Below are positions 2,299-60,930 of a stretch of 64,000 bases of DNA, in pieces. The first letter of the stretch is position 1. Every line of letters begins with the position of its first letter. A model generated the notes under the pieces. The model made no database searches and was not told where the DNA came from. It saw only the letters and a program-made list of their open reading frames with translations. Origin of the DNA: Closterium sp. NIES-65. Its lineage: Eukaryota; Streptophyta; Zygnematophyceae; Desmidiales; Closteriaceae. The stretch covers positions 3,906,001-3,970,000 of the forward strand of contig CANXME010002486.1 of the NCBI GenBank assembly GCA_948144175.1. Reading direction: 5' to 3'. The position numbers and the translations under genes were made by a program.

Positions 2299-2303
2299 GA
2301 AAG

Positions 2304-2649: not shown

Positions 2650-2680
<31 letters not shown>

Positions 2681-26058: not shown

Positions 26059-26820
26059 GACAGCAGCAGCAGCAGGAGGGGCGTGGCTCGGCAGTGCGCT
26101 TACCAGGGGCGGGTGGATAGAAGTCCGCAAGTGGTGGGGCAGGGCCGATGTGCGCCGGCAGGAACAGGGCCGCGACAGGGCGGCGGAGGAGGGCCGCGCC
26201 TCGGCTGCAGGGTAGGGCCGGGACGGCGGCAGCGGCTGTCACGGCAATGGCAGCGGCGGTTGTCTCAGCAGCAGCGGCGGCGCGTGTCACGGCAGCAGCG
26301 GCGGCGGCGACCGGCGGTGGCGGAAGCAGCAGCGGCAGCAGGCACGACGGCAGCTGCTGCTGGGGCGGCGACGACGGGGCGGCAGGGCCGTGAAGAGCCG
26401 GGGAGGGGCCGCGAAGGGGCCGCGAAGAGCCGCGAAGGGGCCGCGGAGGGGCCGTGAAGGGGCCGCGAAGGACCGCGAAGGGCCGCGGAGGGGCCGCGAA
26501 GGGCGGCGAAGGGGCCGGGAAGGGGCCTCGAGGGGCCGCGAGGGGCCGCGAAGGGCCGCGAAGGGGGGGGGGGGGGGGGGGGGAAGGGGCGGCGCAGGGG
26601 GCGCGAAGGGCCGTGAGAGGGGCCACGAAGGGCCGCAAAGGGGCCGCGAAGGGCCGTGAAGGGGCCGCGAAGGGCCGTGAGAGGGGCCGCAAAGGGGCCT
26701 TAAGGGGCGCGACGGGCCGCTAAGGGCAGGGGACGCGACGGGAGGGCAGGGGCACGGGGCGCGACTAGGGCAGGCGCGAAGCGCGCTCCGGGCAGGTAAA
26801 AAAAAAATCCGTTATAGTGG
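26059..26820 (-). repeat. RLC-4 leader with GC-rich tandem motifs
   Basis: From about 26390 to 26720 a degenerate array of 'ggggccgcgaagggccgcgaag' type units; a G run (about 26565-26582) interrupts it. From 26200 to 26390 there are cag/cgg triplet runs. No gene. The primer site expected next to 26820 is not recognisable (minus reads CCACTATAACGG), so it has decayed or been replaced. Confidence 0.7.
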
Positions 26821-35220: not shown

Positions 35221-36084
35221 TAGCACCGAACCAGGTTATGTGTACCGAACTCAAGCCTATTCAATTTTCACCGAATTGCTTTTTACCGAGTTTGGGAAGG
35301 TTCTGCTCAAGACGATTCGCGACCCTCAGAACATTCGCGTAACACCTGGGTTACCTGCCTTATGTTGAGCCTATATATAGCCTCGTGTTGTACCCAAGTG
35401 AATCATTCAATTCAAACCCACTTTTCTGAGCTCGATCCTAGATCCTCACACATTCAATCCCAGCGGGTAAATTTAATGCCAGCCTGGGAATTCAATTTCG
35501 AAGTCACCAGGCTGGAAGTCGGTGCATGCCTACTGGGCCAAGTGGGACCCAGCTAGAATATTGGAGCCTTCACGGGCAGCTCAGCTGACTTGCTTGGTGC
35601 ATAGGCGCTTGCTTTTGGAGAAAACAACCTAGGCAGGGGTGGGAATAGATGTAGCACCGAACCAGGTTACGTGTACCGAACTCAAGCCTATTCAATTTTC
35701 ACCGAATTGCTTTTTACCGAGTTTGGGAAGGTTCTCTTCAAGACAATTCGCGACCCTCAGAACATTCGCGTAACACCTGGGTTACCTGCCTTATGTAGAG
35801 CCTATATATAGCCTCGTGTTGTACCCAAGTGAATCATTCAATTCAAACCCACTTTTCTGAGCTCGATCCTAGATCCTCACACATTCAATCCCAACGGGTA
35901 AATTTAATGCCAGCCTGGGAATTCAATTTCGAAGTCACCAGGCTGGAAGTCGGTGCATGCCTACTGGGCCAAGTGGGACCCAGCTAGAATATTGTAGCCT
36001 TCACGAGCAGCTCAGCTGACTTGCTTGGTGCATAGGCGCTTGCTTTTGGAGAAAGCAACCTAGGCAGGGGTGGGAAGAGATGTA
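35221..36084 (+). repeat. 431-bp tandem duplication, LTR-like, two copies
   Basis: Unit 1 35221-35651, unit 2 35652-36084, about 11 differences by eye (roughly 97% identical). Each unit starts TAGCACCGAACCAGG and contains a TATA-like CCTATATATAGCC followed by GTTGTACCCAAGTGAATC and a C/T-rich stretch, as expected of an LTR promoter and transcript start. Units meet at a shared ATGTAG. The first follows the chromodomain tail; the second precedes the leader of RLG-3, so they may be the 3' and 5' LTR regions of adjacent gypsy copies or a local duplication of one. Confidence 0.75.
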
Positions 36085-36181
36085 GGCAGGAGCAACACTC
36101 AGGCTTCTTGCTTTTTCCTCATATGTTTCTCTTTTTACTCCAACTTGTTTTCCAAATTCGAAGGGAATTAGCAGTAGGAGA
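36085..36181 (+). other. Putative RLG-3 leader, first piece
   Basis: AT-rich, non-coding. It is continuous with 43022-43151 once RLC-7 is removed (target duplication GGAGA at 36177-36181 and 43017-43021), and then with 49056 once RLC-8 is removed. No gene seen. Confidence 0.55.
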
Positions 36182-36342: not shown

Positions 36343-36390
36343 GTTTTTTTTCAGGCCCACCACGAACTTTTTTTTATCTGCCCTGTTCAC

Positions 36391-36540
36391 GCCCTTGAGC
36401 GCCTGCCCTGCCCGCGCCCTTGAGCGCCTACCCTACCCGCGCCCTCGAGCGCCTGCCCTGCCCGCGCCCTCGAGCGCCTGCCCTGCCCGCGCCCTTGAGC
36501 GCCTGCCCTACCCGCGCCCTCGAGCGCCTGCCCGTTGCCC
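36391..36540 (+). repeat. Six tandem 25-bp repeats in the RLC-7 leader
   Basis: Unit 'gccctygagcgcctgccctg' plus 'cccgc', six consecutive copies with T/C and G/A variants, the last one diverging at its end. The unit length is not a multiple of three, so each copy shifts the reading frame and all frames stay open. Confidence 0.88.
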
Positions 36541-37430
36541 TGCCCTGCAGGCCGTGCGCGGGCCTGCCCTGCACTCGCGACGCTGCCCTTGGACCCCATG
36601 GCGTCGCCCCTGGACCCCGCGACGCCGTCAATGGACCTCGTGACGCCCCTGAGGGACCCGGGCGTTGCCCCTGTTTGTCGCGACGCCCTTGCGGGACCCG
36701 CGCGGCGCAGCTCCTGCTCGTTGCGACGAACCTGTGGGACCCGCGCGGCGTCGCCGCTGCTTGTCGCGGCGCCCCCTGGGCGCCGTACCTGCTTGTCGCG
36801 GCGCCCCCTGCCGCAGTCGCGGCCCCGCCTTGCCGCAGTCGCGGCACCACCCTGCAGCAGCTGCCGCGGAGCCCCCCCCCCCACCCTGCCGCTGTCGCGG
36901 CCCCACCCTGCAGCAGCTGTCGCGGAGCTCCCCTGCCGCTGTCGCGGCCCCGCCTTGCAGCAGCTGTCGGGGCCCCGCCTTGCCGCTGTCGCGGCCCCTC
37001 CCTGCCGCTGTTGCGGCCCTGCCCTGCCGCCGACTCGGCCCTGCCTTGCAGCCGCTATCGCGGCCCCGCCGTTGCCGCCGTCGCGCGCCTACTCTGCCGC
37101 TCGGCGAGCGCCTGCCCTACCCGCCACCGGTGGCACCTGCCCTACCAGCCACCGTTGGCACCTGCCCTACCTGCCCCTGGTGAGCACCTTCCCTACCCGC
37201 GCTTCCCGCGCGCCTGCCTTACTAGCTCGCTGCCGCGCCAGCGTGCCTGCCTACCTGCTGCGCCTGCCTACCAGCCCAGCCGCGCCGCCTAGCTGAGCTG
37301 CGCCGCTCAGCCGAGCCGAGCCGCCCAGCCGAGCCGCGTCGCGCTGCCGGGCTGTGCCGCCCTGCTCTACTGAGCCGCACTGCCCTGCTCGCACTGCTAC
37401 TGCTGAGACTACTGTTCCTACTGCTACTGC
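36541..37430 (+). other. RLC-7 GC-rich leader
   Basis: Low-complexity sequence dominated by 'ctgccgctgtcgcggccc' and 'gcgacgcc' motifs, then 'gccgagccg' and a ctgctac run just before Gag-like sequence. Long ORFs on both strands here reflect composition, not genes. Sister elements encode the Gag capsid in the corresponding place. Confidence 0.65.
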
Positions 37431-42885: not shown

Positions 42886-43016
42886 TGTCAAACTTATATG
42901 ACATCGTCTGTGTAGGCTGTATTGGGGTAGACAATATGGGGTACAACACTTTAGGGTTTTTTACTTGTACTCCTCATGCTGCTCAATGCAATCATTCCTC
43001 GTTCTAACTTTTAACA
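42886..43016 (+). repeat. 3' LTR of RLC-7
   Basis: 131 bp, TGTCAAACTTATATGAC...CTTTTAACA, preceded by polypurine tract 42876-42885, followed by GGAGA (43017-43021). Confidence 0.95.
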
Positions 43017-43021
43017 GGAGA

Positions 43022-43151
43022 AGCTGGAAGCAATCGGACTGAGCCCTCGAGGGAGAGTTTAAGTCTTGTTCCACACAAGAAAAAAGGCTTACGACTGTCT
43101 AGAGTTCCTGAAATAGGCTGGGACGCTTGGAATTGCTTGCGGTGATGCACC
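43022..43151 (+). other. Putative RLG-3 leader, second piece
   Basis: Non-coding stretch between RLC-7 and RLC-8. Its last 26 bases (43126-43151) recur at 49030-49055 on the far side of RLC-8. Confidence 0.55.
43126..43151. repeat. Left copy of the 26-bp duplication flanking RLC-8
   Basis: Begins CTTGGAATTGCTTGC and ends GATGCACC; partner 49030-49055 differs at one base (T/C at position 13). The LTRs start and end exactly against the two copies, as a target-site duplication would, but copia integrases normally give about 5 bp. Confidence 0.85.
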
Positions 43152-43719
43152 TGATGGAAAGCGAGCAAATCTGGAGAGCGTACAAGAGATTAAGTCCGCC
43201 GACTTCGACGGAACATTGCGTGCAGCTCACGTAACCTTAAACTATGAGCAGGTACGCGTCGGAAAGGTCTTAATCTCTACTTTCCAGAATGGTAATGCAC
43301 GCTTTCAACCAAGATCTAGACCGATCGCTATCGCGATCTAAGTGCGACGGTGTATTTTGGCGGAATTAATAGGCAGCCATGGATTAGATCAAGAGACTAG
43401 CTTTAGCAAGAGTTCAGATCTGAAAAGTGACGAGTTGTTCAAACCCTACCAACCCAACCCTCGCCCTACAACAATCCCCAACAACCCAAAGTGCTAAACT
43501 AGCAACACCAAAGGTGTTGTAGTGAATAGCAAAGGTTTGTTGGTGCTTGTTGGGTGCGAGATCAATTCCAGCCCACAACAAGTCTAACCACCATATTTTG
43601 CCCAAACCCTTAGCCCACAACCAGCTAGAGCAAAATACCACAACCACCTACACAATCAACACCCCCCCTTGCTCGTGCTGGGGGTGGCTGAACACCACTG
43701 GGCAAAATCCTTCACTTCA
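43152..43719 (-). repeat. 3' LTR of RLC-8
   Basis: 568 bp; on minus TGAAGTGAAGGATTTTGCCC ... TTTCCATCA. Preceded on the minus strand by a purine-rich tract ending in GGGGGAG. Confidence 0.95.
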
Positions 43720-46700
43720 CTCCCCCTTGCCCAGGGAGGGGCGCCATCCACAGCATGAGGTCGTCAAGGCAGAGAAGCACCAGTCCTCCCACATCCTGCT
43801 CAGGCACCATGCTAACATGGGGCTGCATCCCTATCAAGGACATGCACACACCATGCCGCTCAAAAGGGAGGGGTTTGGTGAGTATATCCGCTGCCTGACG
43901 GTCGGTGGGGCACCACCGGAGGATCACCTCGCCGCACGCCACCATCTCCCTGATGAAATGCCACCGAACCTGCATGTGCTTGGTGCGGCCATGCAAGCAT
44001 GCATTCTGTACAAGGGCAATGGCAGACTGGTTGTCCACAAACATAGGCACACCACCAGCAAACTCATGCCCAAACTCCCCAAACAAACACTTCAGCCACA
44101 CACCCTCCTGAATTCACTGACACAGACTGATGTACTCACTCTCAGTGGTGGACAATGCAACCACCGGCTGCCTCTTGCTCTGCCAAGAGATGGCTGCACC
44201 ATTAAGGCAATAGACATAGCCGGTGTGACTCTTGCGATTAGCTGAATCTCCAGCATAATCAGCATCACTAAAGCCCACCAACTCAACCTGAGGCTTGCTG
44301 TGTGCGGGGTAGAAGATACCTGACTTGACACAGCCTTTCAGGTACCTTAGCACTCTCTTAGCAACCTGCAGATGAAATGCCTTGGGACAAGACACCACCT
44401 TGGACAGCTGTGACACTGCATAAGCAATCTGGGGCTGTGTGGTCGTGCTTGCATACATGAGAGACCCCACAATGCTTTGATAGAGCTGGACCAGCTCATC
44501 TCGCAGCAAGGGCTCCTCAGCATGTGCATGCACGTCGAACCCTGTGGGGAGAGGGGCACGCACGGGGTTAGCCTCAGAGAGGCCAAAGGACTCAAGCATG
44601 TTGAGAATGTACCTCTCCTGATGAATCAAGATGCCACTCTCATCACGCTCAATCTGCACCCCCAAATAGTACTTGGCCTCCCCCAAGTCCTTCATGCGGA
44701 AACGAGAGGACAAGAGACCCTTCATCTCGTCCAGCAAGACCATGCTCGAAGACATGAGCAGAATGTCATCCACATAGAGGTAGAGGAACAGCCTGCCCTC
44801 ACGCCTCACCAAGTGGTACAAGACGGGGTCACACTCCGACCCCTCAAACCCAAAATCCATCAGCGCCTCATCAAACTTGAGGTACCACTGCCTTGGAGCT
44901 TGCTTTAGCCCATAGATTGATTTCCTGAGTCGGCAAACTCTGCCGGACCCATCATCAAAACCAGGGGGCTGCCTCATGTACAGCTCCTCTTTCAAGACCC
45001 CATGAAGATAGGCAGTGGTCACATCCATGTGATGGATGTGAAACCCCGAAGTTGCTGCCATCCCAAGGGAACCTCTCAGGGTGGTAGGTTTACCCATCGG
45101 GGTATATACCTGGTCATAGTGAACGCCTCGTGTTTGAGTGTTCCCCATGGCCACCAACCTGGACTTAGGCCTCTCAATACTCCCATCAGCCATGTGCTTA
45201 TACTTCCACACCCACTGACACCTCAAGACCTCCATTCCAGGTGGCACACAAGCTGGATCAACCAGCTCAAAAGACTCGTTCACCCTATGAGACTCAAGCT
45301 CCTCACGCATGGACTCGACCCCCTCAGGACGGGACAAGGCCTCCTTGACCGACTTAGGCTCATGCACTTGACCCATGAGACAGAAATCAAGCCCAAGCTC
45401 ACCCCCCTCAGCATCCACAAACATGCACTCCTCCAAGTCATGCACCTCATGATCATGCATGCAAGCATAGTGTGCACTTGGTGTGAACCTTTCAGGTGGT
45501 CGAGAGATGCGTGTGGTGCGGCGCAGAGGTGAAGCCTCCCCCTGCTCCAAACTTTGCAGCTTCTCCGTCCAAGTCACTCTCTTCATGGGGGACCGTGGTG
45601 ACTTGGACAGCTGCTGCTGCAGTAGCTGCTGCCACCTACCCACAGGAACAGGCGGTGTATGCTCGTGTGGTGGCTGCTGTGGCTTCTCTTGTTGCTGTTG
45701 CTGCTCCTGTGGCTGCTCCGGGTCATGGGCTGGTGCGTTAGGGTCAGGGGTAGAACCAGCAGTTGGTGACTCCTCATGGTGAGGTGCAGCTGCCTTTTGT
45801 TCCTCTTGCTGCTCCTCTACCTCCTCTCCTGGGTCCTCCCATGCCCCCTCAAAGATGGAAGAGGTATAGGGATCCTGAAGGGAGCTCCCAACTGTACTAG
45901 CACCATGCTCCTTCCACCCCTTATAGCTCAGCCCCTCGTGGAAAACCACATCCCTGCTTTCCACCACCCGCTGATCCGCCACACTCCACAACATCCAAGC
46001 TTTGCTCCTCTCCGACACCCCAAGAAAAATGCCCCATTGTGCCTTAGGATCCAACTTCCTCCGTTGCTGGTCGGACACTTTGTACTGCGCCATGCACCCC
46101 CACACTCGTGCCATGGACACACTAGGCACCTTCCTGGTCCACATGAAGAAAGGGCTCTTGCCCCCTAGCCCCTTGCTACCCATTCTGTTCTTAACCCAAT
46201 CGGAATATTGCACTGCTGCCCCCCACCAAGTATGGTCCAGCTGCGCATGAGCAAGCATGGCTCGGGCAAGGTCAATGAGGGTCCGGTTTAGCCGCTCCGC
46301 TGCCCCATTTTGCTGCGGCGTGTAGGCGTCTGAAAGCTGGTGGGTGATGCCCTTGTCTTCAAGGAAAGAATCCAGATCCTTCCCCATGTACTCCCCACCC
46401 CGATCGGACCTAAGTATTTTCACCTTGGCCCCGGCTTCCCTCTCCGCATAGCGTATCCAACGTTTGAAGACCTTGGCCACCTCATCCTTGGTTTTCACCA
46501 AGGTAACCCAACTTAGGCGGCTGAAGTCATCCAAGAAGGTGATGAAGTATTTGCTGCCTTTCTCCCTATCCGGTGTTTGCATGGGGCCACACACATCCGT
46601 GTGCACCAACTCAAGAGGTGCGGAGGCTCTTGTGGTGGAGGTAGGGAAAGAGGTCCTTGGCAGCTTCCTGGTAGTGCAATCAGGGCACTTGCTTGGCTGC

Positions 46701-48373
46701 CCACCACCCTCCTTGATCTCCACACCCTTCAGCTCCCCCTTCTTCACACACTCCACAAGTTGCTGCCTTCCCGCATGCCCCATGCGTAGGTGTAGCAAAT
46801 CTGCCGTCACCTGCTCCACGTCCCTCCAACGGGTGCTACAAGCAGCTTCCTTGGCTTCAACTCCATGTGCCCTCTCCACCAGAGGCACACAAACTGGAAC
46901 AAGGTATAGACCCTTCTCTAACTTGGCCTCCATCACCACAACTTCACCCTTGCGAACCGTGCCACCTTCCATGGTTAAGGTGCATATGTATTCTTGCCTC
47001 GCAAGCTGAGAGCATGAGAGAAGGCTGGCTGCCAAATCAGGAATATGAAGCACACCCTTCACATTCAGCACCTCCCCCTCCTTCCCCATGATGGTGATGG
47101 TGCCGATGCCGATTGCTTGCAGCGTATCTCCGCTCCCCACAATCACATTTCTAGAGTTAGGTGGGAGGGAGTGATAGGTGGTGAAGAGGTCGCGCCAAGG
47201 TACCATTCCACAGGTTGCCCCAGAGTCTAGAATGAGCTGATTGGGGTCAGCGAACACACGACCAGCAAGCGCCGTCTCCTTCTCCAAGGATAAGAAGGAG
47301 AAACCATCATCCGATGAGTCCTCTTTTCCCTTCTTATTCTCATTTGCCGCCGTTGCTGCCGATTTCTCTTTGCTGCCCTTCTTGTTCCATGCTCCATTCT
47401 TCATCCTCCTCTCCACCCACTCAAGCCTAGTGACAGGTGGAGCCTCTCCTGGGTACCCTTGAGGCTTCCACCCATCTGGTCGGCTCCAGCACTCCTTCCA
47501 AGAGTGCTTCCGGTTGCATCCAGGGACGAGGCACTTGTCAAGCTCCTTCTTCTTCCCCCCACCTACGTGCCGCTGCTGGTATTTCTTGGAGGCAGCCCTA
47601 TCACCTGCCCCCATTCCTCCTTCAATTCCTCTACCAGCATCACGCTTGCGAGCCTCATCAGAAACCAACACCTCCCATATCCAGGCCTTGGTCCATTTCT
47701 GCTGCTCTAGGTGAAGGTACTGCAGTAGGGCCTCGTTCGCCTCTTGGTCCAGCCCCTGGAGTGCAGTGTAGATGATCTCCTTCTCATCTACATCATAGTT
47801 CAGCTCCTCCAATGCCCTCACATACTCATCCACCCTCTGGAGGTACTGCACCATGGTCTCCCCATTGCCATAGTTGCGTTCCATGGTGTAGAACCGCTTC
47901 CTCCAAGTGAGTATGCTTAACAACCCTTTTTGCAAATGTCGATCTTGAACTCTCTTCCATGCTAGTGCAGCTGCTCCTTGCTTGCCCTTCAGGTCAATCA
48001 GCATCTTTAGGAGCTCTAGTTGGCCTTCCAAGGCCCAACACAGGTACTGGAACGCTTGCTTGTCCTTGCGATCCCATGCTTCCTGTGCCTTAAGAAGCTC
48101 CTCCGCACTAAGCCGTTGCCTTCCGGTTCGCGGTGCTGCTGATCCACCTCCACTTCCCTCAGTTATGGATGAGCTAGAGGCTCCCCCAGCCCCTTCTCCC
48201 ACTTGGCTAGAGACTCCTGTAGATGCCTTTCCTTCATCAGCTTCAGGTCTTCGCTCCGATCCCTCCAAAACGCCCTCTAGGTCTTTAATACCTAGCCAAA
48301 GCATAAACTGGAACCGCCATAGCGAAAAATCCGAGCCGGTGAACCTAGGAGGGCCATCTAATTTCTGGGCCAT
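43712..48373 (-). CDS. RLC-8 Gag-Pol polyprotein (one in-frame TGA)
   Basis: Chosen start is the ATG at 48373 (MAQKLDGPPRFTGSDF); the upstream frame lies in the LTR and primer site. The frame runs about 1,553 codons to 43712, interrupted only by TGA at 44116-44114 (after EYISLCQ). Order: Gag (to about 270), zinc knuckle-like CLVPGCNRKHSWKEC (about 280-294, CX4CX3HX4C), protease LILDSGATCG (DSG near 383), GAG-pre-integrase and integrase with HLRMGHAG, CPDC, Asp of HTDVCGP (about 592), Asp of RSDRGGEY (about 654), Glu of NGAAERL (about 692), a Gln/Pro-rich linker, RT with YVDD (about 1198), RNase H with FSDADYAGD, ALSTTESEY and, after the stop, FVDNQSAIAL and QAADILTKPL. The single stop removes the end of RNase H, so the copy may be dead although recent. 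Confidence 0.95.
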
Positions 48374-48448
48374 GACCAACCCTAGATCTGGAGGTCCTTC
48401 AACCAATTCGAAATATGATGAAAAGAGGGAATGTCGCAGGCCTAACCA

Positions 48449-48460
48449 GCTCTGATACCA
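48449..48460 (-). promoter_or_regulatory. RLC-8 primer binding site
   Basis: Minus TGGTATCAGAGC, one base from the 5' LTR end (48462). Matches initiator tRNA-Met. Confidence 0.93.
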
Positions 48461-48461
48461 C

Positions 48462-49029
48462 TGATGGAAAGCGAGCAAATCTAGAGAGCGTACAAGAGAT
48501 TAAGTCCGCCAACTTCGACGGAACATTGCGTGCAGCTCACGTAACCTTAAACTATGAGCAGGTACGCGTTGGAAAGGTCATAATCTCTACTTTCCAGAAT
48601 AGTAACGCACGCTTTCAACCAAGATCTAGGCGGATCGCTATCGCGATCTAAGTGCGACGGTGTATTTTGGCGGAATTAATAGGCAGCCATGGATTAGATC
48701 AAGAGACTAGCTTTAGCAAGAGTTCAGATCTGAAAAGTGACGAGTTGTTCAAACCCTACCAACTCAACCTTCGCCCTACAACAATCCCCAACAACCCAAA
48801 GTGCTAAAATAGCAACACCAAAGGTGTTGTAGTGAATAGCAAAGGTTTGTTGGTGCTTGTTGGGTGCGAGATCAATTCCAGCCCACAACAAGTCTAACCA
48901 CCATATTTTGCCCAAACCCTTAGCCCACAACCAGCTAGAGCAAAATACCACAACCACCTACACAATCAACACTCCCCCTTGCTCGTGCTGGAGGTGGCTG
49001 AACACCACTGGGCAAAATCCTTCACTTCA
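48462..49029 (-). repeat. 5' LTR of RLC-8
   Basis: 568 bp, same length as the partner. The right flank begins at once with the second copy of the 26-bp duplication. Confidence 0.95.
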
Positions 49030-49055
49030 CTTGGAATTGCTCGCGGTGATGCACC
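49030..49055. repeat. Right copy of the 26-bp duplication flanking RLC-8
   Basis: 25 of 26 bases equal 43126-43151; abuts the LTR end at 49029 and is followed by ATGAGGCAAG, the continuation of RLG-3. Confidence 0.85.
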
Positions 49056-49128
49056 ATGAGGCAAGAGTAAATTTGATCAGGAAGTTTACACTCATCACCT
49101 GCGCTCGGGACACCGATTCTCTGCGAGA

Positions 49129-50652
49129 ATGATGGAGGGACGCAATCTGCCGACCAGGACGCCTTTATCTTGGGCTGGGGAAGGAGATACTAACGTACGC
49201 GACAACCAAGGACTTGATCGAGAGAAAGAAAGCGGTGGACAAGGACATCAGCCTCTAAGCCCCGCTTATGACTCGCCTGCTGATGGGAGTGGAGTCCCCC
49301 CTATGGGGAGTGGACCTCGACATGGAACTCTAGATCTGAGAGGGGAAGATCATCATGAAGACCGGCGAAGTTAGAGAGGAGGGGACGATCTACACAAAGA
49401 ATGACACAGTCATAGAGGAGGGGACTATCAGCATGAAGAGCAACAAAGTCAAAGAGAAGGGGAAGCGTATCACGGTTTCTTGGCGGGAGGATACGAAGCT
49501 ATGGAGACCGGAAGAGGAGGTCGATTTGCAGGAAGCGGAGTTAGGGGGGCAACGAGCTGGGGGACGGGCAGATCGATGGACGCCACTCCACCAAAAATCG
49601 AGGTGCCAGATCGCTTCTCAGGAATGCCAGGAGAAGAGCCCATGCTCAAGCATTACCTCATGATGATAGACGACATCCACTACTGCTGGGAGAGGGAGAG
49701 AATGGATCGCATCGAATTCTTTAGGAGTTTGGGGAAGACCCTTGAAGGTGAAGCGCTGACTCATTACCATGTGGAGAGGCAAGGGCTGCTGATGCAGAGC
49801 AAGGGAGGAGACTTCTCGCCTACTGTGATCACGGACCAATTCTTAGAGAGCCTGCAAGAGCAATTCCTGGGGCATTCAGCAGATCGGATGGCGGAGTTTC
49901 AAAATTTCATTAGAGTTACTTCTGAGTCGCTGTTAGCCTATTACAACAGGCTGCTGGAACTGGCAAAGAATATGGGGTGCGTGGAAGAACGCATCTTGGT
50001 GACCAATTTTGTCAACGGGCTGGATGGAGACTTGATAAGCGACCTGAAGGGCCGGCTGTACTCCTTGGGAGTACGAGCTAACGCTGAGGTAGATATACCA
50101 GGTGGCGAAGGAAGTGGAGGAGGGGAAGAGATTTTATGATGGCATGCGGGGGTCGAGTTCCACTTGCCCGAATGAGCGAAGGAGGCATGATTGGGCAGCA
50201 GCAAAGGGCAGAAGTGGAGAGGAGGAGTGAAAGAAAAGACTGCCAGAAGATACTAGGCGATGCCATAAATGCGGGGAGCAAGGACACCTGCGTAGGAACT
50301 GTGCTGTCAGGATATTGTGTGACACCTGCACAGTGAAGGGACATTTCAGACGGGATTGCCCCATGGAGCCGACCCGCACGGGATGCGGGAAAAGGGGAGA
50401 TACGGAGGCCAGATATTACAACAAGGGAGACAGGATGAAAGGGAAATCAGCAAGGAGCTATAGTTGGAACAGGAGCTAGCAAAACTGAAGGCACAGATGG
50501 AAAAGGCAAAGATTATTGAGGATCTGGAGAAAGCGCTGCTGGCTTGGGAGGATGATGAAGAGGAAGAATATGAGGAGAAAGAGCCTGAATATGGGACCAT
50601 GGTTATACCGCCAAGGGTGCAAAGGGATCGGGGCTGCGTAGTTGGGGAGTAG
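49129..50652 (+). pseudogene. RLG-3 Gag with two zinc knuckles
   Basis: Gypsy-type Gag on the plus strand. From ATG 49129 an Arg/Gly/Asp-rich N terminus runs through two frames; the conserved core (49480-50139) reads IEVPDRFSGMPGEEPMLKHY, FFRSLGKTLEGEALTHYHV, FLESLQEQFLGHSADRMAEF and ILVTNFVNGLDGDLISDL, in the order expected of Retrotrans_gag. A frameshift near 50100 precedes two perfect CX2CX4HX4C knuckles (CHKCGEQGHLRRNC and CDTCTVKGHFRRDC, about 50263-50355), used in RNA packaging. A Lys/Glu-rich coiled-coil-like stretch (50464-50600) follows. The knuckles and core residues survive, but stops and shifts break the frame. A strong similarity search target as the N-terminal partner of the methyltransferase-bearing pol downstream. 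Confidence 0.88.
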
Positions 50653-50754
50653 ACGGCAGGGCCGAGCTGAGAAGTAGGAAAGGCGATTGAAGGGAGTAGG
50701 AACTCTAGGACCGCCCGGCGTCACCCAGAAGAAAGGTGCATCTGCCAACCCACG

Positions 50755-51105
50755 GCCTTAGTAGTTGAACCTAAAGAAGTGGCAGTTAGGGGAATACTAG
50801 TGGAGAACGCATTGGTAGATACAGGAGGAGAGAGCATTTTGATCGGGAGGAAGCTGACGGAGCAGCTGTGGGCGCAGGGTAATTTGGAAACCGTGAGTAA
50901 AAACACACTGATTATGACAGCAGAAGGAGGGGCCCTCAAGTGGATGCCCTGCACCCGGGAACCGATTGAGATAACTGTGCAATCGGGGGAGAAAGGAGAA
51001 ATGAAGGTTAGAGTGCAATGTGGGTTAACGGAATCGGAGGAATATGACATTTTACTGGGAATGGAGCTGCTACTTAAGATAGGCACAACGACATGTACCT
51101 GGTAG
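50755..51105 (+). pseudogene. RLG-3 aspartic protease domain
   Basis: Retropepsin-like domain: VRGILVENALVDTGGESILI carries the catalytic DTG (near 50818-50826), and YDILLGMELL near its end is the usual second hydrophobic-Gly block. The frame is open from about 50755 to TAG 51103-51105. It would cleave the polyprotein. It directly precedes the methyltransferase domain, with a short linker. Confidence 0.88.
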
Positions 51106-51120
51106 GAGCGGGTGCTCTAC

Positions 51121-52133
51121 AGCTAGGAATTCTGGGAGGAAGAGTTGACAGAGCTGCCAGTACAATTCGTTAAGGCAGGACCCAAGAAGGCCTGGAGAGT
51201 GGAGCTGTTCGGAGGGCTAGGAGCGGGCTTAGCAGTAATGCTATAGGCAGGTCTAAAGGTGAAGAAGTGGGTATATGTGGAATTAGACCCAGACGTGAGG
51301 AGGATGGCGTGGAAGCATGCTCAATGTTACTGCAGCGATACCCAGCGCAGCTGACAAAGGAAGTGCTACAGGAGGCTATGCAGAACAGGAATTCGGATGT
51401 GGGGCTGATCATTAAGGAAGATGTGAGCAGCTGGGGCAAGGTGGATCTGCTAGTAGCGGGGTGGGAGTGCAAGGGTACTTCCTGAGCTGGGAAGGGAATC
51501 GGTATGCGATGGTGAACGTACATCGATGGTGACCAGACTTCTGACAATTATGAGGTGGGCGAGAGAAGCAGGCGAGGACTATGCGTACATCTTGGAGCAT
51601 GTGGATAGGTGGGGCGACGCACGGGAGCCGGTCAGGGCAGTGAGGGAGCTAGTGGAAGCAGAACTGGGAAGAGGATTGAGTTGTGACGGTGCTCAGCTGG
51701 GGGCACGTGTCATAGGGTGCGACAGTACTGGCAAAACGTCTTGCCAGAAAGGAAATTGAGAGCGAGGCTAGCAAGGGTTGAGAGAGACGATAGCAGGATT
51801 GTGGAAGACATTATGGAACCAGGGAGAGTAGCCACCCCAGTGGTAAAGCCAGATTTTCTGCGGTAGTTTCAGTGCAACTGAGTGGAGGAGGCACGGAAGG
51901 CTTGGCCGACTTTAGTGGCCTACTCCAGGGCTCAAGATTTTGTAGAGGTGGACGGGATTCCAGGACCAGGGATGGTGTACGACCATTGCAAGAAGAAGTG
52001 GGAAGAGCCGAATGCCTTGGAATGCGAACTAGCCATGGGATACCTGCTGGGGGCAACAACTGCAGAGGGAATGGGAGAGGAGATGTGCAAGGCTGCCTTT
52101 GGCAGAGCCATAGATCAGCACTCGCTGAGGTGA
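51121..52133 (+). pseudogene. RLG-3 C5-cytosine DNA methyltransferase domain (broken)
   Basis: The region between protease and RT encodes the ordered motifs of a DNMT/DRM-like cytosine-C5 methyltransferase. Motif I (AdoMet-binding) ELFGGLGAGL at 51202-51231; motif II VYVELDPDVRR at about 51274-51303; motif IV DLLVAGWECKGTS with the would-be catalytic Cys at 51468-51470, followed by a TGA and AGKGIG; motif VI-like YILEHVD with Glu at 51595-51597; motif VIII HRVRQYWQNV from 51711; and a C-terminal GRAIDQHSLR (52101-52130) like motif X. The segments lie in three frames: TAG at 51244, a shift near 51320, TGA at 51483, a shift near 51700, and TAG/TGA near 51864 and 51879. In intact relatives the enzyme would methylate cytosine in DNA; this copy cannot. 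Family placement (DNMT3/DRM-like versus bacterial type) is inference. Confidence 0.82.
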
Positions 52134-52346
52134 TCACTAGGTGAGATGAGAAAGGGGCCAGCTGGAAGGGGAGGAAAAGCAGAAAAGGAGCAGGGACGGT
52201 GCAGCACACAGGGAGCGTACGTAGCTATTAGTAAGCCGACAGAGGGGAAGGAGACCGTTACTACACCATCAGGGGCAAAGAAACAGAGCCAGGCAAAGAG
52301 TGGGAGTTAGGGGCTGACATACGGGAGCGAGTAGCAGATGCGATAC
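52134..52346 (+). other. RLG-3 linker between methyltransferase and RT, cut by RLC-9
   Basis: Lys/Gly/Gln/Thr-rich in the methyltransferase frame (GEMRKGPAGRGGKAEKEQ), no recognised domain. RLC-9 entered at GATAC (52342-52346, 58855-58859). Confidence 0.6.
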
Positions 52347-53221
52347 TGTTAGAGACTAAGGATCGAGTCTGTGAAGATTAGGAGCCTACATTTCTCAAAA
52401 TCGTTGGCTTGAAATTCTGGACAGAATCGTCGAGTTCACAAGAAACGTCGTCGGCTAAATTTGCACTGTTGGAATTATCTCAAACTCGAGTATGTTGTAG
52501 CCCTTGTGGCTATCATTCCCAATTTGAATCGTATCGAAAGGTGGAGTAAATCTTGAGTTATGCTTCTCGGCGCACCAGGGGGTATGCTGCCACATAGAAA
52601 TTAAATTCACTCACAATAGTTTCACAAGTTCACAAGAGTTGCACACAAGAGAGTTAGGGTAGCACTAAACCAGGTAGGAGGGAAGAGGAGGACGAGAGGG
52701 AAGGTCCCAAGAGATTCCCCAACCAAGGAAACCCCATGCCACACAATTCCCTTCCCCATAGGCAACCCCACTTTCACATTTGTCACTTTCCCAACTCATG
52801 CCATCCACCTCAACCCACTTGGCCACACTTGCCAACCTGGTTTGGCTTCACCCAACCACATGGCAGCATTCTACAGTGATGGGCTCGAATTCCCAACCCC
52901 CAAAAGTCTGTACCCCATATTGAGTCAACCCCACAGCTTCCCATAGTCGCCACAACCGAAGTACAGAAAGCATACGAACTCCAACGTTCGTAACTTTCTT
53001 GATATTGCTCCGATCGCGACGATTCTTGGCTCGTTGGAAAGATATTGAGCAGTGGAGTCACTTCAGATATCTGCTCGAGCCAAATAACATTCAAACACAC
53101 TCAGAAAATCCAAACCACAGAAAAACACAAATTCTTGCGCACGCTCATTTCACACATGCTACGCACGAACACATGATGGGAGGCAGACAGACGTGAATGC
53201 AAATGATAGCATCACATAACA
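52347..53221 (-). repeat. 3' LTR of RLC-9
   Basis: 875 bp, on minus TGTTATGTGATGC...CTCTAACA. The outer side carries GATAC; the inner side meets purine-rich GGCAGCCAGAGGGGGAGTT (minus). Confidence 0.96.
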
Positions 53222-53278
53222 AACTCCCCCTCTGGCTGCCAACAATCATCCCACATGCCATACCTCAAGCATGCACCC

Positions 53279-55049
53279 TCAATGCACACTCATCCCAGCA
53301 AGCTTCATGCCCTTCCAATGCTCAGATTCAGCCAGGCGCTTGGTGAGAATGTCAGCCGCCTGCTGATGGGTCTTCACAATCTCCAGCTGCACCTCCTTGT
53401 CCAGGAGCCTTCTCACCCAGTGCCACTTAGGCCTGATGTGTTTGGTCAGCTCATGAAGATAAGCATTCTTCGCAAGCTTCACCGCCGACTCATTGTCACA
53501 GAAAATCACAGTCGGCTCCCTTTGACCAACCCAAATCTCCTCTAGCAAACGCCTCAGCCACACCACCTCCTTTGCCCCATGATGAAGGGCCATGTACTCT
53601 GTCTCACACGAGGACAGCCCCACCTCGTTCTGCTTCTTGCTGCGCCAGCTCACTGCACCACCTCCAAAGAGGCACACATAGCCTCCAATGCTGGTGCCAT
53701 CCGTCTTCACTGAGTTGAAGCTAGCGTCGGTGTAGCAAGTCAAGCGCATCTCCCCCTTGCTCAAATCAGCTGCACCCCTCTGTAGCCTCTGTCGCACAGC
53801 ACTGTACTCCAAACCCACTGATGCCGTTGCACTCACATAGCGGACCAACCTCTTGGCCGCTTCCAGCTGCTCATGACTGGGGCGTGAAACCACACTGGCA
53901 AGCCTGGATGTAGCAAAGGCAATGTCAGGCCGTGTGTGGTTAGCCGCATAGTTGAGTGCCCCAACCATGGAATGAAAAAGTTTCCTGTCACTCTCTCCCA
54001 CCACCTCCTCATCAGCACAGGGCTCTACGGTGAACCCTGAAGGCAGTGGGGTGGCTGGCTTCCCTCCATCTCGCAGCCCATACTTCTCGGCCAGCCCCTC
54101 ACAATACTTCCTCTGGTGCAACCTCAACACTCCCTTGTCAAGGTCCCTCTCCACATGCATCCCCAGGTAGTACTTCACGTCTCCCATCTTGGAGCACTTG
54201 AACTGCATTTCCAGCATCTCCTCCACACGCTCAATCATTGCAGACGACTCAGAGAAGAGCAGCATGTCGTCCACATACACCAGGAGCATGAGAAACTGCT
54301 CCTTCTCTTGCAGCAGGAACAAGCTGTGATCGCACTCACTCTTCTTGAACCCCCCGGCCAGCAGTGTCTCCTCCAGTTTGTGGTACCATGCACGAGGAGC
54401 CTGCTTCAGGCCATAGATGGCCTTCTTCAGCCTGCACACCCTGCCGCTCCTATCATCCAACCCCTCAGGCTGCAGCATGTACAGCTCCTCCAGAATGACT
54501 CCATTGAGGAAGGCGGTGGTAATGTCCAGCTGCTTTACCCGCCATCCACGGTATGCGGCCATCGCCAAAGACACTCTCAGTGTTGTGCCTTTTCCCACAG
54601 GAGCATAGAGCTCATCAAAATCCTTCCCCTTCGTTTGCTGGAACCCCTTAGCGACAAGCCTTGACTTGTAGCGCGTCAGCTCCCCATCAGGTCCATACTT
54701 GTGCCTGAAGATCAGCTTCGAAGAGATTGCCTTCTTCCCAGGAGGCAGCTCACACAGCTCCCACGTCTCATTCTCCAGCAGTGAGTCGTACTCCTCCTTC
54801 ACACTCTGCTTCCACTTCTCAGCATCGGGCCCACTCAAGGCCTCGGTAAGCGTCTTGGGCTCAGGGACGGCTGCCCAGTAGCAGTGCGCTATCTCCTCCT
54901 CATCACACTGCTCAGCCACACTCCCAGCCCTTACCACACTTGGCTTCCCAAAGCTCGAATAGGTCAGCCGGTTAGGAGGGCGCACATCCCTCTTAGGACG
55001 GTCAGCCGTACGTGCGGCACCTCGTGGAGCATCTTGCTGCCGCTGCTGC

Positions 55050-55102
<53 letters not shown>

Positions 55103-57739
55103 CACCTCGGGTTCTCCCCCATCCTCAGTCACCCCAGAGATCTCCTCCTCTGAGATGGCAACCTCCACTTGCCTCGAAGGCCGCTGCATCTCATCGGCCT
55201 CAACGATCAGCGGTGTCGTAGGAAGCTTCTGCTGCTGCTGCTTCCACTCCTTGTAGTACAAGGACTCCAGGAACTTCACATCCCTCGACACAGTCAGCTG
55301 CTGGCTGGTCAAGTCCCAAATCAGCCAGCCCTTGTGATCCTTAGCAAGCCCCAAGTGCACACCCCATCTTCCAGAAGCTTTCAGTTTTCCCCTCTTCTCC
55401 TTAGGCACATGAAACACCACCATGCAGCCGTAGGCTCTCAGCATGTTGACTGCTGGTGCACTCCCATACCACTTGGTGTAAGGCACCCACTGCTTGTCCC
55501 CCACAGTTGCGAGCACCCTGTTCTTCACCACAACGACCTGCCGTAGTGCAGTCACCCAAAACGGATCCGGCAGCCCTGCACGCCCAAGGAGAGTGCGAGC
55601 ACCTTCCTGCAGGGTCCGGTTGAACCCCTCAGCCACGCCGTTCTGCTGAGGGTTGTAGGGCACCGTGAGCTGATGCTGGATCCCCTTCTTCTTCAGCACC
55701 GCCTCAAAAACACCGCCAATGAACTCTCCCCCATTGTCGGTGCGGATCACCTTCACTTTGTGTCCGCTCTCCCTTTGTGCTCTCGGCATCCACTCCTTGA
55801 GAACAGCCGCTGCCACCTCCCCCTTAGTCTTGAGAGGGTAGACCCACACCGCACGTGTGTGGTCATCCACAATGGTTAAGAAATAGCGGCTGCCCGAGAG
55901 AGAAGGGGCCCTCGTGGGGCCCACCACGTCCATGTGCACAAGTGCAAGTGGAGCCTTCGCTGGTCCCGTGCTGCTGCTGAAGGGAAACTTCGTGAACTTG
56001 GTCTCAAGGCATGTAGGGCAGCTCCCAATCTCCCTTGCTGCCCCCTTCACCTCCAATCCCTTCAGGTTCCCATCCTTCACCAATTTCTGCAGCATCGGAA
56101 TGTTGATGTGGCACAACCTCTCGTGCCACGTCTCCCAATCGGCCTCACCACTCCAAGAAGAAGCCTTTGCCCATGCAGCCGTTGCATCCACACCAGCAAG
56201 CACCTCACCATGTGATTGCTGTGGCTGCTGCACCTTCTTGACTGCATCCAGGGCCCCAGCAGTTGGTGCAGTCTCCTCTCCTCCCGCAGTTGCTTTAGCC
56301 GCTGCCGCTGCCTTTGCCGTTGCTGGAGGTTTCCCATTCCAAGGGATGATGGGCAGCTGCCACAGGTCCTTGATGCAGCTGCTCTTCTCCTCCAAATCCC
56401 ACAGCAGCAACTTCCCAAGCTTTGCACGGCAGCTGGTTGGGCCGAACGTAACTTTGGCCTTGCTTTTCTGCAGCCGGCGCACAGAGAGGAGGTTAGCGGA
56501 TAAACCTTCAACCAACAGCACATTTCCCAGCCCCACAAGCCCCCCATTAGCTCCCATAACCTTGGCATTCCCAACACCAATCACAGGGAGCAAGGCACCT
56601 GAAGCGGCAGCCACAAACTTTATCTTCCCAGGGGGCTTCACCTCATCAAGCAAATCTGCCCGTGGAGTCATGTGACTCGTGCAACCTGAATCGATCACCC
56701 AGTGAGTGAGGGGGTGCATCACAACCTTCCCAACTGAACCCACATCACCCCCACTCCCTTGCACGTCCTCAACCATGAGGAACATACCAGGGTCGGCTTT
56801 ACCTTGTGCACCATCACCTTGTGCACCTGAATCTTGCACAGCACCACCTCGTGCACGTTCACCACTTGGCGGCTTCATGCCTGGAGGCGCCCATCCTTCA
56901 GGCCGGCTGAAACACTTGAACCATGGGTGTCCAGCCTTCTTGCAGTACCAGCACGCACCCTCCATTCCAGTACTCCCCTTGCCACCAGAGCTCCCATGCC
57001 CCTCATTGTAGTCACCTCGGCCTCTTCCTCTGCCAAAGCCTCTCCCACGGCCTCGGCCTCTCCCTCCCCCTCTTCCTCTGCTGCCTCCTGCAGCTCCATA
57101 CCCGTCAGCAGTTTTGTTGGCAGCACCACCTCCCATGTGGCGCCTGCGGAAGTCCTCCTGCAGGATCTGCTGCCGTAGCCACTCAGGCGTCCACTTGTCC
57201 TGCTGAACGTTGAGGGTGGGGATGAGGTTGTCCCACGAGTTGTCGAGCACCGAGATGATCTTGGTGCACTGCTGCATCTCCGACACCTTGCTGCCCGCCG
57301 CTGCCATCCTCGCATAGGTGTCCTTGATCTTGTCAAGGACCGGTTTCACATCGTCTTCCGCCTTCATGGAGAGAGCAGCCAGCTCCTTCTCCATTACGAT
57401 CACCATCGGCAGCGTGTTGGGTTGTACCACATCGCGTAGCAGCTTCCACGCCTTAGGCCCGGAGTCGTCCTGCTCCACTAGGTCCTTGATATGCTGGAAC
57501 ATATCATTGTTGACCGATTGAAGGATTAGGTCGTACAGCACCGCGCTCTTCTCAATCCATTTGTCGCGGGCATCACTTTCCTCCGGCATCTTCTCTTCTC
57601 CCATCGCAAGTTTTAGCAGCTTGTAGCGCTTGAAAGCGCTCCGCATCCGCCCGCTCCATTCCTCGTAGTTGGAGCCGTCCAAAGCCTCGATCTTGGACGG
57701 TGGCGGTTCACTCTTCTTCTCAGCTGCTTCTCCACTCAT
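53279..57739 (-). CDS. RLC-9 Gag-Pol polyprotein, intact
   Basis: The frame opens further upstream at a TTG, but the first ATG is 57739 (MSGEAAEKKSEPPPSKIEAL); stop at 53279-53281. Order by residue: Gag/UBN2 region (20-200; NYEEWSGRMRSAFKRY), RGG-rich tail (220-245), canonical knuckle CWYCKKAGHPWFKC (about 263-276), protease WVIDSGCTSHM (DSG about 350), pre-integrase and integrase with WHERLCH, CPTC, Asp of HMDVVGP (about 603), Asp of RTDNGGEF (about 667), Glu of NGVAEGF (about 702), a poly-Gln run (about 880-900, CTG repeat on plus near 55042-55097), RT with LDITTAFLNG and YVDD (about 1153), RNase H with CYTDASFNS, SSCETEYMAL, CDNESAVKL and QAADILTKRL. All catalytic residues I can check are present; no stop or frameshift. 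Canonical knuckle and LTR length set it apart from the short-LTR family. Confidence 0.97.
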
Positions 57740-57961
57740 CTCCTCTGCTCCCAATCAGAGGTTTCAGCTCCCCCTTTTGCTGGTCACAATGTAGATCCAC
57801 AATATTTTCACAAGTGACGGCGCCAACGAAATTTCGGCAGAGTTTCCCCTTAGCGGAAGTCACATCCAACCTCCAGAACTCCACTTAGGCACGCCCACAG
57901 GCCATGGTGGGTCTAGGAGGGTCTTCACACTTCAGTAGACTCCCCACAAGGTCCTTAATCA

Positions 57962-57973
57962 GCTCTGATACCA
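57962..57973 (-). promoter_or_regulatory. RLC-9 primer binding site
   Basis: Minus TGGTATCAGAGC, two bases from the LTR end at 57976; initiator tRNA-Met type. Confidence 0.94.
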
Positions 57974-57975
57974 CT

Positions 57976-58854
57976 TGTTAGAGACTAAGGATCGAGTCTG
58001 TGAAGATTAGGAGCCTAAATTTCTCAAAATCGTTGGCTTGAAATTCTGGACAGAATCGTCGAGTTCACAAGAAACGTCGTCGGCTAAACTTGCACTGTTG
58101 GAATTGTCTCAAACTCGAGTATGTTGTAGCCCTTGTTTGTGGCTATCATTCTCAATTTGAATCGTATCGAAAGGTGGAGTAAATCTCGAGTTATGCTTCT
58201 CGGCGCACCAGGGGGTATGCTGCCACATAGAAATTAAATTCACTCACAATAGTTTCACAAGTTCACAAGAGTTGCACACAAGAGAGTTAGGGTAGCACTA
58301 AACCAGGTAGGAGGGAAGAGGAGGACGAGAGGGAAGGTCCCAAGAGATTCCCCAACCAAGGAAACCCCATGCCACACAATTCCCTTCCCCATAGGCAACC
58401 CCACTTTCACATTTGTCACTTTCCCAACTCATGCCATCCACCTCAACCCACTTGGCCACACTTGCCAACCTGGTTTGGCTTCACCCAACCACATGGCAGC
58501 ATTCTACAGTGATGGGCTCGAATTCCCAACCCCCAAAAGTCTGTACCCCATATTGAGTCAACCCCACAGCTTCCCATAGTCGCCACAACCGAAGTACAGA
58601 AAGCATACGAACTCCAACGTTCGTAACTTTCTTGATATTGCTCCGATCGCGACGATTCTTGGCTCGTCGGAAAGATCTTGAGCAGTGGAGTCACTTCAGA
58701 TATCTGCTCAAGCCAAATAACATTCACACACACTCAGAAAATCCAAACCACAGAAAAACACAAATTCTTGCGCACGCTCATTTCACACATGCTACGCACG
58801 AACACATGATGGGAGGCAGACAGACGTGAATGCAAATGATAGCATCACATAACA
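57976..58854 (-). repeat. 5' LTR of RLC-9
   Basis: 879 bp; four bases longer than its partner. Followed by GATAC (58855-58859). Confidence 0.96.
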
Positions 58855-58859
58855 GATAC

Positions 58860-59895
58860 TGTAGCAGCACAAGGGCACTTTTGCTTATAACTTGCAAGAA
58901 CTGGGGAGATACAACGGGAGGGAGCTGGAGCTGAACCTCACCACAGAGCTGCCTACATACCAACGCAGGAGGCGGATGAATGCAGAGGATGCAGCCATCT
59001 GCAAGGAGAGAATTTGTTAGTTGTAGGGATTATCCGCTCGTCAGAGTCGAGTTACGCCGTCGCCACAGTAGTAGCTGCTAGGAAGGATATCACGGGAAAG
59101 GTGCTGGCAAAGAGGATGTGCGGGGATTCCTGAAAGCTAAACAAGATCACTAGCCCAGACAGGTATCCCATGGCAACTGCAGAGGACATTTTTGACCGCT
59201 TAGAAGGCGCCATCATCTTCACCACCTTAGACCTGCGGCAGGTACTCAATCAAATAGCTATTACGGAGGAAGACAAATGGAAGACGGCGTTTCACGGGGT
59301 AGATGGGCTGTACAAGTACAACGTGATGCTTTTTGGGCTAAGTAACGCTCCGGCACTGTTCCAGCGAACCATGGATTAGGCGCTGAAGGGGATTTCAGCA
59401 GCAGCTTGCTACATAGATGATGTGTTGATTTTCAGCAGAAGTGAGGAGCAGCATGTGCAAGATCTGAAGCAGACCCTAGAGGCGATAGCAGCTGCAAGAC
59501 TGACGTGTCATCCAAATAAGTGCAAGATAACCAGGTGCACAGTGGCTTACTTGGGTTTTGAAGTAATGGGTTGTCGGCTAGCTATACAAGAAGCAAAGGT
59601 CAAGGTGCTGGAGAACCTGGCAGCACCAAAGGACAAGATGGGGTTGCGGGCGCTTCTTGCCTTCCTGAATTACTACAGGAAGTTCTTACTAAACTTCAGT
59701 CGTCGTGCCTATGTGCTGAACCAGCTGCTGAGGGAAGGGAGGAGTTGGCAATGGGGAGAGATGGAGGAAGCGGCAACGCAGGATCTGCTAGAAGTAGTTA
59801 GGACGGGAACCCTGCTACGGATACCAAAAGGCGAAGCACCTTTCTTACTATACACGAACTGGAGCAATACAGGAATGGGGGCAGTGCTCTGTTAG
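58860..59895 (+). pseudogene. RLG-3 reverse transcriptase
   Basis: Gypsy RT resuming after RLC-9. Upstream: ELGRYNGRELELNLTTELPTY, then GIIRSSESSYAVATVVAA and ITSPDRYPMATAEDIFDRLE. Core: FTTLDLRQVLNQIAI, KTAFHGVDGLYKYNVM, FGLSNAPALFQRTMD (TAG at 59377-59379), YIDDVLIF with catalytic YIDD at 59410-59421, CHPNKCKI, YLGFEV, then the thumb LLAFLNYYRKFLLNFS and the start of RNase H FLLYTNWSNTGMGAVL (stop 59893-59895). Domain order (protease, methyltransferase, RT, RNase H, integrase) defines an unusual gypsy layout. A few stops only, so decay is moderate. Confidence 0.92.
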
Positions 59896-60330
59896 GGAAT
59901 AGAAGGGGAAGAGAAGGTGATAGCAGTTGCTAACCGCAGCTGCAGCCCATCCGAGACTAATTACTGCTCATACGAGGGCAAGGGCCTAACAAAAATATGG
60001 GGAAATACACACTTTAAGGCGTAATTACAGGGGCGTCACTTCACGCTGGTAACGGGCCATCAGATACTACTGTGGTTGATGCCCAATCAAGAGTTGACCA
60101 GAAGAAATGCGCGCTGGGCCATCAAGTTGCTGGGATTCAACTTCGAGATTCGATGCGGACTGGGGAAAACAATGCAGCATGCAGATGGGCTGTCCAAGAA
60201 CCGGCCACCGATGCAGCCGGTAGCTCAGCTGGCAGCTATGGCTCAGGTAGCGGCTGTAACCTGGGGGCAGGAGAATGGAGAGAAGCGGCTGGTGAATATC
60301 TCGGAAGATGAGGAGGCTATGAGCTAGATC
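59896..60330 (+). pseudogene. RLG-3 RNase H domain
   Basis: Continues gypsy RNase H: SCSPSETNYCSYEGKGL and, after a TAA, GRHFTLVTGHQILLWLM, NQELTRRNARWAIKLLGFNF and MQHADGLSKN, the usual end of the domain (H.DALSR-like). The Asp of HADGLS is near 60184. Two stops interrupt it. A Gln/Ala-rich tether follows. Confidence 0.85.
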
Positions 60331-60840
60331 AAAGGCAAGCCTTTAGAAGAAGAAGGAATAAGTGAGAGGGTAAGGGCCAGAGGGCAGCATTTACAGGTGG
60401 TTACAGGAGCAACTGCAGCTAAGAACAAAGGAACGCTGGAGAGTGGTACCGCAGCCGCAAGAGAGAGGAAAGATTATGGGGAAAGTTCATGCGAAGTTGG
60501 GCATAACGGCATAGCGAGAACGCGGCAGCTGCTGAGCACCATGTATTGGTGGGCCAACATGGGGAAAGGTGTGGCAGGTCTTGTGGCCAGCTGCGAGGCA
60601 TGCCAAAGGAATAAAGCAAGTTTGAGAAGGAGAGGGATGAGCTACAGTCGCTACGAATTAGAAGGCTGGGTTACAGGTGATCGCTGGACTTTGCGGGAGA
60701 GCTACTGTTGTCGAAGGGAGGGAAGCCGTACTATTTTATGTGATGGTCGCGGACACGAGCAAATGGGTGGAAGCGCGAGCGTCACCAAGCAAGAATACTG
60801 CACTGATAGCAGACGTGTTTGAGGAGCTTGTTCTTGTACG
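60331..60840 (+). pseudogene. RLG-3 integrase N-terminal part, truncated
   Basis: H2C2 zinc-binding domain: VGHNGIARTRQLLSTMYWW, then LVASCEACQRNKASLRR (about 60490-60640). The start of the catalytic core, SLDFAGELLL with the first Asp near 60683-60695, is in a shifted frame, followed by YFMVADTSKWVEARASPS and NTALIADVFEELVL (to about 60840). Catalytic Asp 2 and Glu, and any chromodomain, are missing because copia fragment RLC-10 takes over at about 60930. The 60841-60930 stretch is unassigned. Confidence 0.85.
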
Positions 60841-60930
60841 AGAAACAGAAAAGGAAGGAGAGAGAAAGGCAACCAAATATTTAAGGGAAAGTAAGGACCG
60901 AGTGTTTGTAGAGGAGGATTCACGACAAGG

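Follow-up and report, generated by a model that had tools for sequence, protein, structure and literature searches.

A decayed Ty3/gypsy retrotransposon of the KnitGypsy-Dnmt3 kind in Closterium, with a predicted DNMT3-type methyltransferase and relatives whose ends suggest insertion from DNA circles

Does a decayed gypsy retrotransposon of the alga Closterium sp. NIES-65 encode a cytosine DNA methyltransferase of its own and, if so, what could such an element use it for? The question arises within the 64,000-nucleotide stretch of contig CANXME010002486.1 analyzed here (the window), where the initial annotation had read six methyltransferase motifs between a gypsy protease and reverse transcriptase (RT). 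All six are present in the claimed order (ELFGGLGAGL, VYVELDPD, VAGWECKGTS, ILEHVD, HRVRQYW and GRAIDQHSLR, within 51199-52130), and the placement holds as well: the window is colinear with the relative P0083, which encodes gag, CCHC, protease, methyltransferase, RT-RNase H and integrase, and intact members of the family have the domain in this same place. The parts of the window copy, together with the copia element inserted into it later, are as follows:

35901..36181, + strand: left repeat (A1) piece (blastn with A1 of intact copies, 76-86%)
43016..43151, + strand: A1 end and leader start, left of a copia element (blastn, 72-82%)
49040..49141, + strand: leader continued, right of that copia (blastn to copy L103, 80%)
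49591..50091, + strand: gag (colinear with P0083, 44-54%)
50237..50449, + strand: CCHC zinc-knuckle stretch (P0083 residues 317-387)
50671..51120, + strand: aspartic protease, VDTGGES (P0018, 71%; Pfam gag-asp_proteas E 0.0019, below cut-off)
51199..52130, + strand: putative DNMT3-type C5-cytosine methyltransferase, broken (phmmer, protein search, tblastn, P0083 colinearity)
52347..58854, - strand: later copia in the linker between methyltransferase and RT (LTRs 52347-53221 and 57976-58854; GATAC duplication)
58856..60216, + strand: linker end, RT and RNase H (P0083, 47-60%; PF00078, PF17919)
60383..60841, + strand: integrase zinc finger and core start, truncated (PF17921 E 1.8e-12; P0083, 44-54%)

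Relative to P0083, the methyltransferase stretch has suffered three frame changes, four in-frame stops (counted in the frames used, which were assigned by hand from the printed stops) and a shortened linker, so that the earlier count of at least five lesions is right. Insertion of the 52347-58854 copia (LTRs 98.5% alike) into the linker explains why the RT now lies 6.5 kb downstream of the methyltransferase, and an upstream copia at about 43152-49029 (LTR pair 97% alike) splits the gypsy leader. Bordering the latter on both sides is a 26-bp direct repeat from the gypsy leader (43126-43151 and 49030-49055; 96%), far longer than the usual 5-bp duplication. A sibling locus (L116, L115; G000:C1122:857000-872999), 91-98% alike over window 38224-60247 and 95-98% over the gypsy pieces, is without both copia insertions, with both empty sites visible, and carries another insertion of its own; it is either a haplotype or an old duplication. 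The window's methyltransferase DNA matches this sibling at 98% and the other 38 places scored at 79-81%. The window as a whole is rich in nested LTR elements, and long low-complexity frames rich in Pro, Ala, Gly and Arg lie amid copia remnants (26030-26811, 36387-37292 and others). Simple LTR flanks were sought for the gypsy copy and not found; its A1 repeat was later located by blastn in two pieces.

The profile check that the initial annotation had proposed came out divided. Pfam returned no methylase match for six short single-frame pieces or for a read-through with X at the breaks, a silence we ascribe to the broken state of the window domain, and it was the frame-aware comparisons and the intact relatives that gave the answer. 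The read-through (335 aa) matches DNMT3B chains (phmmer E 2e-4), and a protein search with it matched 17 proteins (best E 3.7e-78, 48% identity), 16 of them with Closterium as source name, as have 54 of the 73 proteins in a further search for relatives; PF00145 scores above cut-off in seven of ten matched proteins scanned. The best relative, the protease-methyltransferase protein P0018, is 63% identical to the window and aligns by tblastn to 50497-52229, while the contiguous methyltransferase-RT protein P0024 aligns to 51304-52157 and 58853-59562, flanking the copia insert. With motifs I, IV (Cys), VI (Glu), VIII and X in order, and with a DNMT3-like fold in its intact relatives, the window domain is assigned as a DNMT3-type C5-cytosine methyltransferase. 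The catalytic Cys is kept in 137 of 138 full domains of such relatives. To our knowledge, Pro-Cys in motif IV is near-universal among C5-cytosine methyltransferases; the window copy and 108 of the 138 domains have Glu-Cys, and 20 have Pro. The names DNMT1, CMT and DNMT2 are absent among the DNMT3-matching rows, an absence that alone excludes nothing. P0018 found no relative among viral contigs, and another query yielded at least 600 viral stretches, at least 271 of them encoding a relative; the best 80 of the 271 match only in part, at 23-39% identity, in line with ordinary phage C5 methylases.

A search of the same genome for intact copies, likewise proposed in the initial annotation, found them with the methyltransferase in place, so that neither of the two refuting outcomes named there occurred. 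Across the 874-Mb assembly, where 71 places of 1,793 candidates were scored, 58 of the 71 are free of stops where protease and methyltransferase match, and open frames of 2,071-2,084 aa occur in 26 rows (a stop being counted in one of them). In intact relatives a single ORF, about 2,084 aa long, has the order CCHC-protease-methyltransferase-RT-RNase H-integrase zinc finger-DDE integrase, and among the copies examined no intact one has its methyltransferase outside this ORF or free of selection; in two such ORFs Pfam reports CCHC, protease (weak), methylase (22.4 bits at a cut-off of 22, and 18.4 bits), RT, RNase H, H2C2 and rve. The Ty3/gypsy order of gag-CCHC, protease, RT, RNase H and integrase is thus present, and the RT-RNase H of P0083 finds Ty3 as its best solved chain (E 4.6e-82). 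The window holds one decayed copy of a large, still recently active family. Its subfamilies are mosaic: the pairs L100/L103 and L101/L106 are close in RT-integrase and distant in gag-methyltransferase, which indicates recombination between subfamilies, as from template switching.

The ends were examined in 38 copies (eighteen 10-kb stretches and 20 further copies), which come in two forms: a long A-coding-B-A-B form, exemplified by the reference copy L091 (A1 1319-1828, ORF 1919-8170, B1 8105-8275, A2 8278-8787, B2 8788-8958), and a short A-coding-B form (L094, L097, L099, L101, L102, L118 and L119, with L120 short by position, its stretch starting inside B). Both outer ends are defined (A position 1, B position 171) in 26 of the 38, the remaining 12 being truncated, broken, odd or with other sequence in the stretch (for example L090, L092, L104, L105, the tandem L121, and L128 with an inverted B). 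All 26 start with TGTCG and end with CGACA, and 25 of them (17 long, 8 short) have an exact 4-bp target site duplication (TSD), none longer; L103 has defined ends and no TSD, and as a control, pairing the left flank of one copy with the right flank of another gave agreement in 2 of 650 cases. A1 and A2 are 99.6-100% alike in eight of nine copies measured (identical in four) and 98.6% alike in L103, so most of these insertions are recent. The copy ends are not two contiguous identical LTRs but A and B, with the repeats split. Nor do the copies show the DIRS/PAT hallmarks of tyrosine recombinase and missing TSD, DIRS-type recombination not being known to leave one; they have an rve integrase and the 4-bp duplication. 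The palindrome CGACAGCTGTCG, which itself contains two CG sites, lies between B1 and A2 in all four copies looked at, and the outer ends of the element equal its two sides. Two of the odd copies deserve separate mention: L128 (G000:C21:1079057-1080157) has an inverted B after A2 that starts at the palindrome, as if cDNA had attacked itself, and L090 (G000:C2299:131768-141767) stops at A2, lacks the 4-bp duplication, has some 45 bp of flanking DNA repeated on either side and may have been inserted by another route.

While the outer ends are uniform, the inner A2|B2 joins vary. The 16 joins readable in long copies comprise 15 distinct 32-nt strings, with bases lost on either side and 0-3 nt that come from neither A nor the bases before B1 (strings read by eye). 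L091 and L093, 99.9% alike, have one common join, whereas that of L091 differs from those of L089, L095 and L096 despite 99.3-99.7% likeness; the joins of L098 and L106 come from other subfamilies, which carry their own substitutions, and in L130 A2 is much shortened. Just ahead of the start of B stands GGGAGGGGGCA, likely the polypurine tract, in five of six copies printed (L103 has one difference), and ACAAGCAAAAAG stands just after the end of A in all six.

Such variable joining of copy ends suggests insertion from DNA circles. Provided that the cDNA carries B followed by A as its LTR, the A|B join would be the end-to-end junction of a 2-LTR circle, and as a transcript running from A1 to A2 has all needed parts but not this join, the join would usually be made anew. 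The simplest reading of the assembled DNA is that the DDE integrase inserts both 1-LTR and 2-LTR cDNA circles at the palindrome within the LTR. RT would make the cDNA, which would close into a 1-LTR circle or, by joining of the A end to the B start, into a 2-LTR circle; the integrase would then open the circle at CGACAGCTGTCG, the B/A boundary, and insert it as TGTCG...CGACA. A 1-LTR circle opened at the palindrome would give A-ORF-B, the second A missing, and a 2-LTR circle would give A-ORF-B-A|B, transcribable from A to A, with the cycle thereby renewed. In retroviruses, integration of circles by integrase is regarded as a dead end.

In the intact relatives the methyltransferase is under purifying selection: NG86 dN/dS between subfamilies is 0.13 (L091/L098) and 0.11 (L091/L099), with 0.10 and 0.12 for RT in the same pairs. 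Farther pairs give 0.03-0.07 with dS saturated, and other close pairs 0.12 (L101/L106), 0.36 (L098/L099) and 0.58 (L100/L103), the last two from few changes. That the domain is selected about as strongly as RT in the two clean comparisons and has been retained over deep divergence argues that the element uses its methyltransferase. The enzyme might methylate the new cDNA or the circle, which could then pass as host DNA or enter a defined chromatin state; we regard action on fresh cDNA or circles as the most likely role, at roughly even odds of being correct. Taken as a whole, the explanation of the window as a dead Ty3/gypsy copy of the KnitGypsy-Dnmt3 kind, with circle insertion and a methyltransferase acting on cDNA or circle as its inferred parts, is one we hold with good confidence. 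A broader proposition may equally well prove right or wrong: that circles rather than linear ends insert, via the LTR palindrome and with only the 2-LTR forms fertile, and that methyltransferases recur in retroelements with nuclear circles, perhaps marking or shielding the circle. Its examples are this gypsy line, with a cytosine enzyme, and DIRS elements, whose enzymes act on cytosine or adenine; a LINE of Symbiodinium that bears a methyltransferase falls outside it.

Beyond Closterium, a third protein search returned 159 matches, and the following counts refer to the 120 listed (11 Closterium, 109 other). Where an RT motif was found among these, the methyltransferase precedes RT in 8/8 Closterium proteins and follows it in 77/77 others; with RT and integrase zinc finger both present, the order is methyltransferase-RT-integrase in 3/3 Closterium proteins and RT-methyltransferase-integrase in 66/66 others. 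The second set comprises Haematococcus lacustris proteins (P0123, P0125, P0158), EukProt entries and metagenome contigs; precomputed annotation places a PHD domain in 90 and a G-patch in 5 of the 109 listed, and Pfam finds PHD after integrase in five of six polyproteins scanned and none in the sixth. The metagenome methyltransferases P0035, P0043 and P0046, with Pro-Cys in motif IV, make up a third group next to the two retrotransposon sets, and one gypsy-methyltransferase polyprotein, P0112, is filed under a Minisyncoccia bacterium MAG, its contig probably being a mis-binned algal one. Across 75 non-Closterium elements, methyltransferase and RT distances are correlated (r 0.68, a value reached in 0 of 2,000 permutations; r 0.74 once three Closterium elements are included), so element and domain move together.

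Where the domain came from can be read in more than one way. A broken copy in a neighborhood full of nested elements could in principle be a host DNMT3 gene or pseudogene lying by chance beside gypsy fragments, yet protease and methyltransferase share a single frame in many genome copies, which refutes this, and the family copies have matching repeats and fresh TSDs; we give that explanation practically no credence and have dropped it. Two independent captures of DNMT3-like genes, which in the Closterium line would have placed the domain between protease and RT and in the Haematococcus and metagenome line between RNase H and integrase, come a little short of an even chance. In the listed matches with RT found, the two positions never mix, and in the methyltransferase tree (a careful run with the bootstrap not fully settled and algal host DNMT3 genes left out) the Closterium domains, including that of the window, fall into a single clade (100/99; 14 rows of the 68 kept after thinning). 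A quick RT-RNase H tree with Ty3 as outgroup splits alike, with just 3 Closterium-side rows against 59. One capture followed by relocation fits equally, however, and the unusual Glu-Cys occurs in both sets (20/22 Closterium, 88/116 others), a weak counterargument in view of the 11 changes of this residue on the tree, for which we rejected it as a mark of common origin.

The end structure and the role of the enzyme admit alternatives as well. A-ORF-B-A-B could be inherited through RNA as the split direct repeats of DIRS/PAT elements are, the integrase merely replacing the tyrosine recombinase: the repeat order is the same as in DIRS, the repeats of the Klebsormidium element are so described in the available text of PMC5890265, and L091 and L093 do have a common join. 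Inheritance would nevertheless make the join common to all, yet it differs among close copies, and the 4-bp TSD in 25/26 copies also speaks against it, leaving this reading improbable beside circle insertion. As to role, the methyltransferase could instead serve the host by marking copies for silencing and slowing retrotransposition, so that milder elements persist, a possibility raised in the discussion of PMC5890265 as far as available; in the two clean comparisons the domain and RT are under similar selection, which benefit to the element itself explains at least equally well, and we rank this role second and consider it rather unlikely.

The suggestion in the initial annotation of a likeness to published charophyte elements is borne out in kind, as DNMT3 type and A-coding-B-A-B repeats recur in the available description (PMC5890265), and a methyltransferase-bearing gypsy element of this layout was thus already known from it as KnitGypsy-Dnmt3. 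Found here are the split in domain position, the 4-bp TSDs at TGTCG...CGACA, and the two copy forms with variable joins. Together these extend a one-charophyte report to a second streptophyte alga, whose family is large and has been active recently, as well as to related elements of Haematococcus and metagenomes; this wider spread and the correlated distances make the tie between DNMT3 and gypsy look old and stable. A genome with very young copies also opens the purpose of a parasite's own methyltransferase to test, and the end structure points to circle integration by a retroviral-type integrase. Among titles and abstract openings of the literature matches listed, with few subscription journals, we found no methyltransferase-bearing gypsy described for Closterium or chlorophytes and no account of such elements inserting as circles, and the name Klebsormidium is absent among the matches listed in three protein searches.

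Compared with known systems, the Closterium family shares the catalytic-domain fold and motif order of DNMT3A/DNMT3B, from which it differs by an identity of about 21% and by Glu for Pro before the catalytic Cys in 108/138 domains; no PWWP or ADD appears among the Pfam hits of the scanned polyproteins and two Closterium ORFs. The Haematococcus lacustris, EukProt and metagenome polyproteins have a related methyltransferase and gypsy RT-RNase H-integrase, but place the former after RNase H, usually with PHD after integrase and sometimes G-patch. SymbioDIRS-Dnmt3 of Symbiodinium likewise has DNMT3 in Pol and A-coding-B-A-B repeats, but it is a DIRS-class dinoflagellate element with a tyrosine recombinase where the Closterium family has a DDE integrase, as far as described in PMC5890265, where the SymbioDIRS enzymes are reported to perform CG methylation in yeast; the available text of PMC12344493 mentions DNMT3 in "LTR Copia and DIRS" elements. 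Closest is KnitGypsy-Dnmt3 of Klebsormidium nitens, for which the same description (PMC5890265) gives a DNMT3-type domain in the gypsy Pol ORF, DIRS-like repeats and purifying selection, and no methylation seen in yeast, from which its authors draw no conclusion. Its main text has neither "circular" nor "target site duplication" and names TSDs for a LINE only, and short forms and variable joins, present in Closterium, are absent from the description as available. Matched on that description, the Closterium family is of the KnitGypsy-Dnmt3 kind: a gypsy pol with DNMT3 and A-coding-B-A-B repeats in a charophyte host, here a different alga.
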